NCBI GenBank assembly: GCA_902798285.1
Contig: CADBVZ010000022.1
Span: forward strand, 1-64,000
Reading direction: 5' to 3'
Length of the DNA stretch: 64,000 nucleotides
From: an uncultured Prevotella sp.
Lineage (GTDB): Bacteria > Bacteroidota > Bacteroidia > Bacteroidales > Bacteroidaceae
Positions 4,874-50,402 of this stretch are shown one piece after another. Numbering within the stretch: the first letter of the stretch is position 1; the number at the start of each line of letters is the position of its first letter. The notes beneath the pieces are model-generated. The model saw only the letters and a program-made list of their open reading frames with translations, searched no databases and was not told where the DNA came from. The position numbers and the translations under genes are program-made.

Positions 4874-7423
4874 TTAATTGTTCTCATTGTTATCGGGAGT
4901 CTCGATCAGGGGAGCATCGTTGATTTCCTCGTCGACAACCTCGGCTGTCTCGATATCCTCTTCCTCGGCCTGAGAGTACATCACCTTACATACAGAGGCA
5001 ATGACATCGTTCTTCTTGGCGAGGTTGATGAGACGAACGCCCTGAGTGGCGCGACCCATAACACGAACATCGGCTACCTTCAGGCGAATGAGTACGCCCG
5101 ACTTGTTGATGATCATGAGGTCGTTCTCGTCGGTAACTACCTTGATGGCTACCAGGCGGCCTGTCTTCTCGGTAATGGCGAGGGTCTTCACACCCTTGGC
5201 ACCACGAGCGGTCTTACGATAGTCCTCAACCTCAGAGCGCTTACCATAGCCGTTCTCAGAAACCACCATGATGGTCTCAGTGTTAGGATCGTTGACGCAA
5301 ACCATACCTACTACCTCATCGTCGCCACCATCGAGGCGCATACCGATCACACCGGTAGACACACGACCCATGGTGCGAACATCGTTCTCATCGAAGCGTA
5401 CGGCACGACCATTGCGGTTGGCGAGCAGCAGCTCGTTGTGGCCATTGGTGAGGCGAACGCCTACTACCTCATCGCCCTCGTTCACATTGATGGCGATAAC
5501 ACCAGCTGCGCGTACATTCTTATAAGCATCGAGGCGAGTCTTCTTGATGATACCCTGCTTGGTGGCGAATACCACATAGTGGGACTTGAGGAACTCCTCG
5601 TCGTTGAAGTTCTTGATACGCAGAACGGCATTGATTGAGTCATCGGGATCGATGTTCAGCATGTTCTGGATGGCGCGACCCTTCGAGTTCTTGTCGCCCT
5701 CAGGTATCTCATAACACTTCTGCCAGTAGCAGCGACCCTTCTGGGTGAAGAAGAGCAGCGTGTTGTGCATGGTGGCAGGATAGATATACTCTGTGAAGTC
5801 GTTATCGCGATGACGGGCAGCCTTGGCACCAACACCACCACGACCCTGCTCATGGAACTCATCGAGGTTGGTGCGCTTGATGTAACCCATGTGAGAAATG
5901 GTGATAACAACGGGATCATCGGGATAGAAGTCCTCAGCATTGAACTCATGGTCGAAGGGAATGATCTCAGTACGACGCTCGTCGCCATACTTCTCCTTCA
6001 CCTCGAGCAGATCCTGCTTCATGACTTCCTTACAACGCTCGGGATTGTCGAGAATCTCCTGTAAGTCGGCGATGAGTTTCTGCAGATCGTCGTACTCCTG
6101 ATGGAGCTGATCCACACGCAGACCTGTGAGCTGAGCCAGACGCATATCGACGATAGCCTTAGACTGAAGCTCATCGAGATTGAAGCGAGCCTCCAAGTTG
6201 CGCTGAGCATCAGTAGGAGTCTTAGAGTTACGAATAATGTGTACAACCTCGTCGATATTATTTACGGCGATGATCAAGCCCTCGAGGATGTGGGCACGCT
6301 CCTGAGCCTTGCGCAGATCGTACTTGGTACGACGGATGGTAACATCGTGGCGATGCTCAACGAAGTACTTGACACACTCCTTGAGCGTAAGCAGGCGGGG
6401 ACGACCCTTAACCAGAGCGATGTTATTGACTGAGAATGAGCTCTGTAAGGCTGTCATCTTAAAGAGCTTGTTAAGCAGTACATTGGCATTGGCATCGCGC
6501 TTTACATCGACCACGATACGCATGCCCTGACGGCCTGACTCATCGTTGACATTAGCCACACCTTCGATCTTGTGCTGGTTAGCCAGATCGGCGATGTAAG
6601 CCACGAGGTCGGCCTTATTCACACCATAAGGAATTTCTGTTACAACAATCTTGTCGTGAGTGTCGCCACTCTCGATCTCAGCCTTGGCACGCATCACGAT
6701 ACGGCCACGACCTGTCTCGTAAGCATCGCGTACGCCCTGCAGACCATAGATATAGGCACCCGTTGGGAAATCGGGACCTGGGATATACTGCATCAGGCCA
6801 TCGGTATCAATATCGGGATTGTCGATATAGGCGCAGCAGCCATCGATCACTTCGCTCAGGTTGTGGGTAGGCATATTGGTAGCCATACCTACGGCGATAC
6901 CATTACCACCATTCACCAGCAGATTGGGCACCTTGGTAGGCATAACGGTAGGCTCTTCGAGCGAGTCGTCGAAGTTGGGTGCCATATCAACGGTCTCCTT
7001 CTCGAGGTCGTCCATGATGTGCTCACCCATCTTTGAGAGGCGGCACTCTGTGTAACGCATGGCAGCTGGAGAGTCGCCATCCACAGATCCAAAGTTACCC
7101 TGACCATCAACCAGCGTATAGCGCATATTCCAGTCCTGGGCCATACGTACGAGGGCACCATATACTGAAGAGTCGCCGTGGGGGTGGTACTTACCAAGCA
7201 CCTCACCTACTACGCGGGCGCATTTCTTATAAGGCTGTGTGCTTACATTGTTAATGTTCATCATACCGTAAAGAATACGGCGATGAACGGGCTTAAAGCC
7301 GTCGCGAACATCGGGAAGGGCACGTGCCACAATGACTGACATAGAGTAGTCAATGTAGCTGGATTTCATCTCTTCCTCGATGTTAATCTTAATAATTCTG
7401 TCGTTGTCGAGTGTTTGATCCAT
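4874..7423 (-). CDS. gyrA: DNA gyrase subunit A
   Basis: 849 aa. Breaks and rejoins DNA in the gyrase A2B2 complex, introducing negative supercoils. The N-terminal breakage-reunion domain has the catalytic tyrosine in AAMRYTE and the quinolone region [20 protein letters not shown]. Ser85 corresponds to E. coli Ser83, and Gly89 occupies the place of E. coli Asp87. The C-terminal beta-propeller holds a GyrA-box-like segment ([12 protein letters not shown]), which favours GyrA over ParC, and several wrapping repeats such as [10 protein letters not shown]. The acidic tail (about 40 residues, ending DNNENN) is typical of GyrA. gyrB is not in the window. A strong promoter lies upstream, divergent from clpC. 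Confidence 0.96.
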
Positions 7424-47293: not shown

Positions 47294-47848
47294 CTAAGTC
47301 TGTAAAAAACTAATCTTGCGTCGATTCTCTCTCGGCCTTACTGCGAAGTGAATCCAATATCGCCCCTGCTTATTTCGTTCGATGAATAGTTCATCGAAAT
47401 CCCGCTTCGTGCCATCAGCAATATCCAGCAGGATATTCGCATAGCGAAGTGCTTGCTCTACGCCAACACAGCGGATATCCACGGCGCAACCCGTTAAATG
47501 GTTTGAATTCGGCGATCCTCCCACCAATTTATTCACCTCCGGCGATCGATACCCTGAGGTAATGATAATGGGCGCCTCATGTCTGACAGGGGACAGGTTC
47601 CTGTCAGATACACTCTGCGCTTCCGGGCTGACAGGAACCTGTCCCCCGTCAGACCCCACCTCTTCATATAGCACATTATTGCTGTAGCGGAGATCTTCCA
47701 GCCAGTCCTCGCAAATCCTGCGAAGATTCTCTATCGCCACGTGGCTGGGGATGTTCCCATCGGCCGTCTTGTGGCTTGTCTTACATACCTCCCCGAGCGA
47801 AAAGTGCTCGGAGAGGTGCATTGATTTGTTCATGCTTACATTACTCAT
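47294..47848 (-). CDS. M15-type peptidase with in-frame palindromic insert
   Basis: 184 aa of the peptidase M15_3 (D-Ala-D-Ala carboxypeptidase-like) family. Zinc ligands are visible: His in SPNSNHLTGCAVDIRC, the Asp of AVDI, and His in YWIHFAV. The conserved IIITSGYRSPEVNKLVGG precedes them. Residues about 65-89 come from a 74-bp palindromic element (47581-47654), inserted between NNVLYEE and EAPIIITSGYRS, where relatives have a short loop. No signal peptide, so the protein is cytoplasmic or released by lysis. Such enzymes usually accompany phage-like or VirE/HU modules in Bacteroidales. Confidence 0.85.
   Translation of the reverse strand: MSNVSMNKSMHLSEHFSLGEVCKTSHKTADGNIPSHVAIENLRRICEDWLEDLRYSNNVLYEEVGSDGGQVPVSPEAQSVSDRNLSPVRHEAPIIITSGYRSPEVNKLVGGSPNSNHLTGCAVDIRCVGVEQALRYANILLDIADGTKRDFDELFIERNKQGRYWIHFAVRPRENRRKISFLQT
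47581..47654. repeat. 74-bp nested palindromic element, copy 1 (inside M15 peptidase)
   Basis: Outer arms 47581-47607 and 47628-47654 are reverse complements with one mismatch. Each arm is itself a hairpin (CTGACAGG ... CCTGTCAG, with inner GACAGG-TT-CCTGTC). On the - strand it encodes SDGGQVPV ... SDRNLSPVR. Same length and arms as copy 2 at 49712-49785. Confidence 0.95.
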
Positions 47849-47875
47849 ACTCTAAATTCTAAATTAATAAAAAGT

Positions 47876-47907
47876 CACTGTGTCCTAGCGTCCTAGTGTC
47901 TCAGCGT
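47876..47907. repeat. TCNNNGNG octamer array, copy 1
   Basis: Four 8-bp units (tcactgtg tcctagcg tcctagtg tctcagcg) just after the end of the VirE/DUF3987 gene. The same array occurs at 61380-61411 (tcactgcg tcactgcg tcctagtg tctcagcg) and, inverted, at 61190-61222. Confidence 0.85.
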
Positions 47908-50402
47908 TATAGCATCACCTTTCCGGTCTTCATATACCTTGCCTTGGTGGTTCCATTTTCGCAGTATTCGCCCGATTTCTCGATTAACCGATCTTTCAGC
48001 AAACGGCATACCCTTTTTCTAGCTGCTCCGATATTTTTCAATGTAAAACATTTCACTACATCATCTACCGTGAATTCTTCAGGCAATCGTTCGAAGGCTT
48101 CGAAGGTCTTCTGCTGACGGTGTACATTCACACTGGCATCGCGATTCTTGTTGTCGAAGTAGGCTTCGGCCATAGCTCCGAAGAAGTAACGCTGACAAGC
48201 AAATTGCATATTCACAATCAGTTCTGCCATTTTCCAGTCGGTCTCGTCCGTCTCGAATGCTCCGCAAAAGAAGTTGCCCTCCTGGTGCATCTTGTCCCAA
48301 TGGCGCATCACGATAAACGGTGCCGAGAAATTCAGACCGTGGTAGGCACATCGCTTCAGCAGCATCTCGTCGGCCCTGGAGTCGTTCTCCTTGGCATCCT
48401 CCATGCGCCGAGCCGTCCAGTCGTAGAGCTCGTCTACAATCTTCTGCACACTGAGTTCACCCTTCATCTTGTTCAGCTTCTCGGCCCATTCCTTCAGCCG
48501 TTTGTCACTTTCGAAATCCACGGTACTCTCACGAGAGAGCATCTGGAAATCAGTCTCCGGCAGCGGGATACAAGTCAGTCGGGTGGCTAGTCCGGAACCG
48601 AAGTTCTGCTCGTTCACTTTCTTCTTCAGCGCCAGGGGCGTACCAGTATAGGCATAATTCCATGTCACGTTGAAGTCTTGAAAGATAGAGTCTACATTCG
48701 AATAAGCCTGTCCGTCTTCCTCATTGTGGAAGGCTTTGAGCTCCATGCTCATCTTGTCAATCCAAGAACCACCCTTCTGAACAGCCAAGGTATTATCCAA
48801 CTCGGTGTCAAAAGTGAGCATATGCAGCTGCATGTCCTCGCCATCCACATTCTCCACGGCATTCACCATGTCTTGGATAAACTGGGCGTTCGATGTTCTC
48901 GAGGGGTGTACCCTCACTATCACCTTAGGCTTCGGAGGCTTTTCTTTGTTGGCCCCCTTGGTCTTCAACAACTCTCGATAGGCATTGATGGCCTTCTTGC
49001 CTACCTTGTCGGCCTCGATGATAGGCGCAGCCAACAGTTTGTAAAGCCGTGTGGCAAAGCTTTTTCCACATGCAGGATCACCCACCACAATAGCCGAGCC
49101 GTTTAGCCTCCGCTTCTCTTCTGGCCGATGGTAGAACCGATACCAGCACCGAGTCATCAGCGTCATCATCAAGCATCCGGCCACAATCAGAGCCGCCGGA
49201 AACTGATTCTTCTTCAATCCTTTGCACACATCCTTCAGAATGGGATAATCATCAAATAGTTCCTCAATCCGCTCACCCCAATCTTCCAATCTCTGGTCCA
49301 TGTCTTGGGCTTGCGAACTATTGTCTTGAACTCCTTGTCTCCCTGTCTCCTTGTCTCCTTTAAGAACTTCTTGGTAAGTTCTTCCTGTGGCAGCCTTCAC
49401 CGCCTCCTGCATGGCCTTACTGGGTAGCGAGCTTGCATACTTTTTCTCCTTCTCCGCGATGCACCCCGCTGCTGACTCCACGGTCTGCTCCACGTTCTCG
49501 TCGCGCTCATCGATGATCTCCTGCACCCACGGCTGGGCTTCGACGACCTGCCGTACCAGGGCTTTATCACCGTCGAGCATAAGCATGAGGTCTGTGGCGA
49601 GTTTAAGGGATTCAGCATGTCGGTTGGAGTCCTCCTTGCATGGCAATTGAGTGCCATAGCGAGCATTAATAATAGACTGAAGATTATAACCTCGCCACGT
49701 CGGTTCTGGGGGTCTGACAGGGGACAGGTTCCTGTCAGCCAGTTGCGCTTCTTTGTCTCTGACAGGAACCTGTCCCCTGTCAGACGATGCGCCCTTCTTC
49801 GTAGCCTGTGAATGACCGTTGCGATATAGAGATTCATATCTCTCAGCGTATTCTTTGTTCTCATACGTAAATAATTCCTTGTCTAAATAAAGTATGTCCG
49901 ATTCTTTACAAATGTAACTCAGCCTTGAAGAATCCTTTCCGCTCTCATCTACCTCAATATCAAGCACTTGCGCCATGGCATGCTGATTATCGATGAGGTT
50001 CCCCCAATCGATCCTGGCCTTAAACACCAGCTTGATACCCTTGCCCGATGGCGTGATGTAGATAAAATAGATACCCAGATCCTTAAAGTCAAGACCCTTG
50101 CTGATCCATCCTTGATACAAGGCGTGAGGATCGTCAATGTGGTCCACATCTATGACCACCAAGCCTGTGAGCCTTGTGGCCGATTGCTTGCGCCATGCGC
50201 CTTCCTTACCCGCCTTCGAGGTGGTGACGTCGAAGGTAGAAGGGAAGATCCACCCAGGCAGCTTTCGCTTATACGAAGCCTCGCCCGTCTCTCGATACTT
50301 GTCAATACTCTCGTTCCATTGTGTTGCCCTGACGAGCGCAAAGAATTGCGCTTCGTCAACGGGCATGGTCGGATTACTAAAATTACTCTGATAACAAAAC
50401 AT
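47907..50402 (-). CDS. VirE N-terminal / DUF3987 primase-helicase-like protein with in-frame palindromic insert
   Basis: 831 aa. N-terminal VirE_N/BT4734-like domain (about 1-185; RLTGLVVIDVDHIDD and FIYITPSGKGIKLVFKA resemble primase-type catalytic strands). A linker follows, with residues about 206-230 encoded by the palindromic element at 49712-49785. Then a DUF3987 P-loop ATPase with Walker A IVVGDPACGKSFATRL (about residue 440) and Walker B-like LHMLTFDTELD; the C-terminal helical domain ends TGKVML. A role in replication or mobilisation of an element is inferred. A second low-complexity patch, GDKETGRQGVQD, comes from tccttgtc-type repeats at about 49330-49360. Confidence 0.85.
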   Translation of the reverse strand: MFCYQSNFSNPTMPVDEAQFFALVRATQWNESIDKYRETGEASYKRKLPGWIFPSTFDVTTSKAGKEGAWRKQSATRLTGLVVIDVDHIDDPHALYQGWISKGLDFKDLGIYFIYITPSGKGIKLVFKARIDWGNLIDNQHAMAQVLDIEVDESGKDSSRLSYICKESDILYLDKELFTYENKEYAERYESLYRNGHSQATKKGASSDRGQVPVRDKEAQLADRNLSPVRPPEPTWRGYNLQSIINARYGTQLPCKEDSNRHAESLKLATDLMLMLDGDKALVRQVVEAQPWVQEIIDERDENVEQTVESAAGCIAEKEKKYASSLPSKAMQEAVKAATGRTYQEVLKGDKETGRQGVQDNSSQAQDMDQRLEDWGERIEELFDDYPILKDVCKGLKKNQFPAALIVAGCLMMTLMTRCWYRFYHRPEEKRRLNGSAIVVGDPACGKSFATRLYKLLAAPIIEADKVGKKAINAYRELLKTKGANKEKPPKPKVIVRVHPSRTSNAQFIQDMVNAVENVDGEDMQLHMLTFDTELDNTLAVQKGGSWIDKMSMELKAFHNEEDGQAYSNVDSIFQDFNVTWNYAYTGTPLALKKKVNEQNFGSGLATRLTCIPLPETDFQMLSRESTVDFESDKRLKEWAEKLNKMKGELSVQKIVDELYDWTARRMEDAKENDSRADEMLLKRCAYHGLNFSAPFIVMRHWDKMHQEGNFFCGAFETDETDWKMAELIVNMQFACQRYFFGAMAEAYFDNKNRDASVNVHRQQKTFEAFERLPEEFTVDDVVKCFTLKNIGAARKRVCRLLKDRLIEKSGEYCENGTTKARYMKTGKVML
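49712..49785. repeat. 74-bp nested palindromic element, copy 2 (inside VirE/DUF3987 gene)
   Basis: Arms 49712-49738 and 49759-49785 are reverse complements, and each arm folds on itself as in copy 1. The spacer also shares tgcgctt with copy 1. On the - strand it encodes SDRGQVPV ... ADRNLSPVR. No stop codon arises in the used frame. Confidence 0.95.

Follow-up and report, generated by a model that had tools for sequence, protein, structure and literature searches.

Two nested palindromes in the genome of an uncultured Prevotella sp. are most likely copies of a non-autonomous REPIN-like element, probably spread by a Y1/HUH transposase that is encoded on contig C2 of the same genome and resembles the TIRYT type. 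They lie in a stretch of 64,000 nucleotides (hereafter the window), i.e., positions 1-64,000 of contig CADBVZ010000022.1 in assembly GCA_902798285.1; the whole draft assembly is called the window genome below. Both palindromes are located within genes on the minus strand, and the features concerned are as follows:

47294..47848, minus strand: M15-family peptidase gene of 184 amino acids (aa), with the element in the linker preceding PIIITSGYRS
47581..47654, no strand assigned: REPIN-like palindrome pair in the M15 peptidase gene, 74 bp, core 47583-47652, outer dinucleotides GT..AC
47583..47607, plus strand: left arm of the M15 copy, hairpin CTGACA-GGGGACAGGTTCC-TGTCAG
47628..47652, minus strand: right arm of the M15 copy, 1 mismatch to the search pattern
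47907..50402, minus strand: BT4734-like/DUF3987-related gene of 831 aa, with the element in a variable linker at residues ~206-230
49712..49785, no strand assigned: second REPIN-like palindrome pair, in the BT4734-like/DUF3987-related gene, core 49714-49783, outer dinucleotides GT..AC
49714..49738, plus strand: left arm of the DUF3987-related copy, 0 mismatches to the search pattern
49759..49783, minus strand: right arm of the DUF3987-related copy, 0 mismatches to the search pattern

Each palindrome is made of two 27-nt arms around a 20-nt spacer, and the arms are 96% complementary in the M15 copy (47581-47607/47628-47654) and 100% complementary in the DUF3987-related copy (49712-49738/49759-49785). 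The arm centre GGGGACAGGTTCCTGTC, searched with at most 3 mismatches, has 4 matches in the window against a mean of 0.12 over 100 shuffles (maximum 1), which makes a chance origin untenable. Read in the minus-strand open reading frames (ORFs) of the M15 and DUF3987-related genes, the two elements give the peptides SDGGQVPVSPEAQSVSDRNLSPVR and SDRGQVPVRDKEAQLADRNLSPVR, respectively. On the whole, recomputation reproduces what a first-pass annotation of this DNA had described, namely two nested 74-bp palindromes with 27-nt arms, an arm that is itself a hairpin (the CTGACA-GGGGACAGGTTCC-TGTCAG stem in the left arm), and in-frame reading in the same phase within two long minus-strand ORFs, encoding S-D-x-G-Q-V-P-V ... 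D-R-N-L-S-P-V-R. Two of its points call for comment. The name of the M15 peptidase is supported by Pfam (Peptidase_M15_3, E 3.5e-14), while the 831-aa protein matches BT4734-like_N (E 7e-9) and has no match to the DUF3987 model at E 0.001, which its relatives do match. The spacers, described as similar, are equal in length, but in gene sense one appears to be inverted relative to the other: comparing the two copies directly gives a near tie (58/74 as they stand, 60/74 reverse-complemented), and against the copy in a DegT-family gene the M15 element fits better as it stands (60 vs 53) and the DUF3987 element better when reversed (65 vs 56).

The arm sequence belongs to a repeat family. Within the whole window genome, 31 arm matches (15 forward and 16 reverse, with at most 3 mismatches) are found, against 0 in the reversed control, and they are mostly arranged as inverted pairs, with 14 pairs in the stretches fetched. 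A related genome of a second species, G031, has 45 arm matches and 17 pairs in the stretches fetched, which contain all the matches but one (C160:41909, 3 mismatches). In 150 genomes of the genus, the arm pattern has any match in 4, two of these with a single match. The tag GGGGACAGG is present in 57 of the 62 paired arms of both genomes (24/28 in the window genome and 33/34 in G031). The count of 31 pairs leaves out 11 single arms, and also the C8 and C39 pairs, which are divergent and detected only at up to 6 mismatches. The genome-wide search that the first-pass annotation had suggested shows a dispersed repeat, with copies both within unrelated genes and in intergenic regions. As a side observation, a divergent 60-bp palindrome pair lies directly past the 3' end of two M15 copies (L018:2494-2553 and L019:2534-2593), and up to 6 mismatches are needed for its detection. 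Carriage by phages was also looked for, and viral_contigs have 0 exact matches to the arm pattern. In the literature listings covered, no paper on this repeat family in Prevotella was found (some metagenome papers containing both terms were left aside), and the matches listed for the motif as letters are all on other matters.

The transposase is linked to these repeats both by position and by occurrence. The Y1_Tnp profile has a single match in the window genome (E 5e-7), the gene on contig C2 at L010:5888-6637, with 249 aa counted from the first ATG; REP_Tyr_transpos stays under the cut-off (63 of 80 bits). Repeat pairs flank this gene upstream (5695-5767) and downstream (6654-6726), and the pair directly downstream has AGGGACAGG in both arms. 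The nearest homologue found is the G031 transposase, 70% identical and likewise flanked by repeat pairs. Counting fragments, 49 of the 150 genomes have a transposase match, and among 30 loci fetched from these, 14 have the motif GGGG[AT]C[AT]GG (0.37/kb; 12/28 leaving out the window genome and G031), while the control loci have it in 2/29 for TilS, 2/15 for GH67 and 3/15 for DegT (0.04-0.08/kb). The motif is also present at 5 of 10 named Prevotella-type transposase loci, and at 16 of 70 more distant loci, with 63 motifs against 9.4 expected. Named relatives of the transposase are from dairy cattle, deer and sheep or belong to Xylanibacter species, and the host of the window genome is therefore probably a Prevotella relative of the rumen type; in Xylanibacter ruminicola D31d the transposase is 59% identical and has a tagged hairpin next to its gene. 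Over the 150 genomes, the excess of GGGGACAGG over the reversed control is larger where there is a transposase match (p 7e-8, kinship uncorrected), and 13 of 17 motif-rich genomes have such a match. Two further observations concern the motif: genome G032 has 211 copies of the GGGGACAGG motif where the control has 17, yet its transposase matches are weak only, and motifs of the GGGGACAGG type are seen close to related transposase genes of other phyla (e.g. L212, L216, L236, L261), often between A-rich and T-rich stretches.

Many of the copies are in genes. Among the 14 pairs of the window genome, 9 are in genes, all in frame, and 5 are outside. Three are in M15 genes, the window and C31 genes sharing one insertion and C44 having a separate one in the same linker. 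Three more are in the window DUF3987-related gene and in the C12 and C35 copies of a second gene of the DUF3987 family, and tilS, a GH67 gene and a DegT-family gene have one each. In addition, an S9 peptidase gene contains a single arm, also in frame, which is counted in the phase tally only. In G031, 8 of the 17 pairs lie within genes with Pfam or homologue support and keep the frame; the hosts are two DUF3987-related genes, PAP2, GH2/malectin, glycosyltransferase, epimerase and ABC transporter genes, and a sodium symporter gene with the element near its C-terminus. Carriage by accessory genes only, as the first-pass annotation had it, is not supported: copies are present in the tilS, GH67, DegT-family and S9 peptidase genes as well as in intergenic regions (tilS is essential in many bacteria). 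Nor is the element always read in one phase: the DRGQVPV frame is used in 13 of 16 independent in-gene cases and the LTGDR frame in the remaining 3 (binomial p 0.02), while the third frame of the element holds a TGA. The DUF3987-related and M15 genes are themselves seen as a multi-copy, often adjacent pair (window 47294-50402; L014, L016, L116-L119), with 22 match rows for M15 (some genes split over two rows) and 6 for DUF3987 in the window genome. Two pairs of this genome are located at or beside a stop codon, L010:2979-3055 and L010:7869-7945, after rsgA-like and mnmA-like genes.

The core length differs between the in-gene and the other pairs of the two genomes. The in-gene cores have 70, 73 or 88 bp and all 17 are 1 mod 3, while the others have 68 to 73 bp with 8 of 14 being 1 mod 3 (Fisher p 0.004, paralogues included). 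With the genes in frame and the cores 1 mod 3, whatever lies outside the core has to contribute 2 mod 3. The net insertion cannot equal exactly 74 bp, since 74 is not divisible by three and the frame is kept, and an insertion of exactly 70 bp is ruled out by the frame as well. Just outside the core, the window genome has six types of outer dinucleotide (GT, GC, TC, CC, TT, AG). Of the 12 pairs that are independent, 11 have complementary dinucleotides on the two sides of the element (permutation p 5e-5); further out, complementarity is found in 4/12 at position 3 and 0/12 at position 4. Moreover, the same 70-bp core occurs in the M15 (C22) and DUF3987-family (C35) copies with GT..AC and AG..CT outside, respectively, both ends being changed together. 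The simplest reading is that one outer dinucleotide would derive from the target site and the other would be a complementary copy of it; template switching that repairs hairpin bases could have the same outcome.

The M15, DUF3987 (two sites), tilS, GH67 and DegT copies are all within stretches of variable length and sequence across species. By sequence matches to solved structures, the TilS insert comes after the part aligning to the N-terminal domain, and the M15 insert lies ahead of that part of the catalytic domain which aligns. Other species provide 144 distinct linkers that correspond to these. Of them, 8 carry a tagged pair of another kind (M15 four times in G031 and once in G088, DUF3987 site 2 in G119 and G090, TilS in G119), and 10 have a stem of at least 8 bp that no more than 1 of 100 shuffles equalled (M15 in six cases, DUF3987 site 1 in one and DUF3987 site 2 in three; paralogues are among them, and multiple tests are uncorrected). 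The GH67 and DegT linkers of other species have no tagged pair and no such stem, with a lone unpaired tag in one DegT gene. Overall, M15 and DUF3987 site 2 show clear recurrence at the same linker, and the other sites only slight recurrence. Other repetitive-looking in-frame peptides (TPSPKGEGE-like, ELVEG-like) are also seen in the same linkers of other species (L284, L288, L095, L152). Comparison of alleles, also proposed beforehand, does yield shorter M15 alleles in the window genome, three 60 bp and one 69 bp below the window allele and all in frame, but no precise empty allele. All of them keep the first bases of the element, GTCTGACGG, and the tree, whose support here is low to moderate (0.50 to 0.95), places them among the element-bearing copies, which suits in-frame deletion that happened repeatedly. 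They are not adopted as empty sites, and the simplest reading is that they may have arisen by in-frame deletion following one insertion.

Taken together, the following mechanism is proposed. The element consists of two hairpin repeats in inverted orientation, each with a GGGGACAGG tag in its loop, and the C2 transposase would recognise the hairpins in single-stranded DNA and move the doublet. Insertion would leave the core plus 2 bases, with the outer dinucleotide reappearing as its reverse complement on the opposite side. Selection would then let insertions survive where they are harmless, either between genes or in flexible protein linkers, in-gene survival needing one of the two stop-free frames and a net length that is a multiple of three; some copies would afterwards shrink through in-frame deletion.

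Several points weigh against this explanation. Neither movement nor any transcript or protein was observed, and the draft window genome has 80 contigs and a completeness of 84%. In G031, the complementarity of the outer bases is 13/17 at position 1 and 5/17 at position 2, the latter near chance, and the rule of mirrored dinucleotides may hold in part only. No precise empty site was found at the DNA level, and we therefore infer the net length and the junction; the empty sites sought at the protein level in TilS, GH67, DegT and DUF3987 relatives are in linkers too variable for exact lengths, and the shorter M15 alleles of the window genome retain remnants of the element. One G031 pair (L128:1977-2048, core 72) supplies the TGA ending a 659-aa helicase-like ORF, before a thrS-like gene; it is counted as outside genes, and counting it inside would change the 1 mod 3 tally to 17/18. 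Three other pairs, L130:4755 (core 68), L131:3990 (core 73) and L304:1561 (core 73), are counted as non-genic, their ORFs having no Pfam or homologue support. As for the transposase, no helix-turn-helix was found by Pfam in the window-genome protein, which has a C-terminal tail, and the G031 protein gives weak helix-turn-helix matches (E 0.08-0.18); the C2 protein does not appear to fit any one published subclass. Finally, 16 of the 30 transposase loci are without the motif within the stretch fetched, and 4 of the 17 motif-rich genomes are without a transposase match.

A more general statement can be made only tentatively, and we consider it doubtful: TIRYT-type transposases would insert hairpin doublets with a variable outer dinucleotide mirrored as its reverse complement (a 2-bp inverted, not direct, target duplication), giving a net gain of the core plus 2, so that cores of 1 mod 3 keep ORFs intact, and such a transposase family would keep seeding linkers with new peptides in rumen Prevotella relatives, the M15/DUF3987 pair above all. 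Its odds are lowered by position 2 being at chance in G031 and by tagged pairs occurring in just 8 of the 144 foreign linkers.

Among the alternatives to spread by the transposase, the one surviving best, though unlikely, is that the repeats are passive: the doublets would be no longer mobile, or would spread by copying errors or gene conversion between hairpins at replication, with the transposase as a bystander. The unobserved movement agrees with it, as do the loci without motif and the motif-rich genomes without transposase match, and template switching at hairpins can likewise give complementary flanks. However, the presence of an identical 70-bp core in two genes that are unrelated, as are the flanks of the core, the pairs on both sides of the sole Y1_Tnp match in the window genome and around the related gene in G031, and the motif excess tracking the transposase over 150 genomes all argue against it. 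It is quite improbable that the inserted peptides are useful, the elements having been recruited as linkers or regulatory hairpins; the preference for one phase (13/16) and the few foreign linkers with different tagged pairs (8/144) are in its favour, but the linker is short in many homologues, the window genome itself has shorter alleles, and tolerance of a hydrophilic insert accounts for the pattern. An ancient motif or domain shared by the two neighbouring genes and kept for its peptide, an outcome named beforehand as contrary to an inserted repeat, would suit the common peptide and phase of the two window copies, but it is ruled out by the copies in intergenic regions and unrelated genes, by the GH67 copy in another frame and by the compared homologues of other species, which have no such peptide at the site, with the seemingly different spacer orientation of the two copies pointing the same way.

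Among known systems, the transposase-linked REPIN-like element proposed here is nearest to the transposase-linked doublets of repetitive extragenic palindromic (REP) sequences or terminal inverted repeats. In the sections compared of Di Nocera et al. 2013 (PMC3733652), TIRtrons/TIRYT elements have a Y1/HUH tyrosine transposase gene with inverted repeats on both sides and a GGGGWSAS consensus in the terminal inverted repeats, and the repeats are dispersed as dimers. The window genome has the same gene arrangement, the tag GGGGACAG fits the consensus, the motif is found in the repeats of both genomes, and the dimers correspond to the 14 pairs of the window genome and the 17 of G031. For GTAG and CGTC repeats, the same sections report REP doublets within genes that code for 20 to 30 residues, and two Xanthomonas recB genes carrying different REPs at about the same site; in contrast, 9 of 14 pairs are in genes here, and those sections contain neither the host clade nor the outer-dinucleotide signature. 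For REPIN/RAYT systems, as presented in the parts used of Bertels and Rainey 2011 (PMC3116915), the inverted hairpin doublet with a spacer and the link to a RAYT-like gene are alike, whereas the GT[AG]G at the hairpin foot is absent here, the bases 5' of the stem being variable, and the REPs there number hundreds and are primarily extragenic, against 14 pairs fetched here that are often in genes. The survey of TnpA-Y1 proteins by Quentin et al. 2018 (PMC6006769), to the extent of the text compared, suggests subclass 2.1 (Bertels group 1) to be TIRYTs, yet describes no REP-like sequences near 2.1 genes, and describes atypical ones near subclass 2.6 (group 5) genes; unlike in both subclasses, clear hairpin doublets flank the gene here. 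The C2 transposase has the motifs NHFH and YIHQNP and a length of ~250 aa. Its NHFH fits the NH[YF]H of subclass 2.1, where NHVH is the other form, and its length is nearer to that subclass, but YIHQNP differs from YIELNP or Y[IV]HLNP, and the tail has no Pfam match to the helix-turn-helix found there. Conversely, YIHQNP fits the YIH[QN]NP of subclass 2.6, whose motif set also includes WQ, but NHFH differs from NH[LIV]H and the median length there is 179 aa.

The first-pass annotation had likened the palindromes to the Rickettsia palindromic elements and held that a counterpart in Bacteroidales would be notable. Dispersed, in-frame repeats in variable linkers of unrelated genes are indeed present in this Prevotella relative, but the Rickettsia likeness, drawn from general descriptions and from the part of PMC3733652 compared, is an analogy; here the repeats flank a transposase gene. 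Intragenic REP doublets are already known, and what is new is a GGGGWSAS-tagged doublet family with its transposase, often in genes, in the Prevotella clade; the junction signature is perhaps new as well, not being met in the portions of the papers compared. A TIRYT-like transposase thereby gains a clear dispersed hairpin-doublet family, where one survey found none for the most similar subclass. The family offers a testable junction rule, the core plus 2 with a mirrored dinucleotide, and illustrates how short, apparently mobile palindromes lengthen protein linkers, even in tilS, with the frame unbroken.

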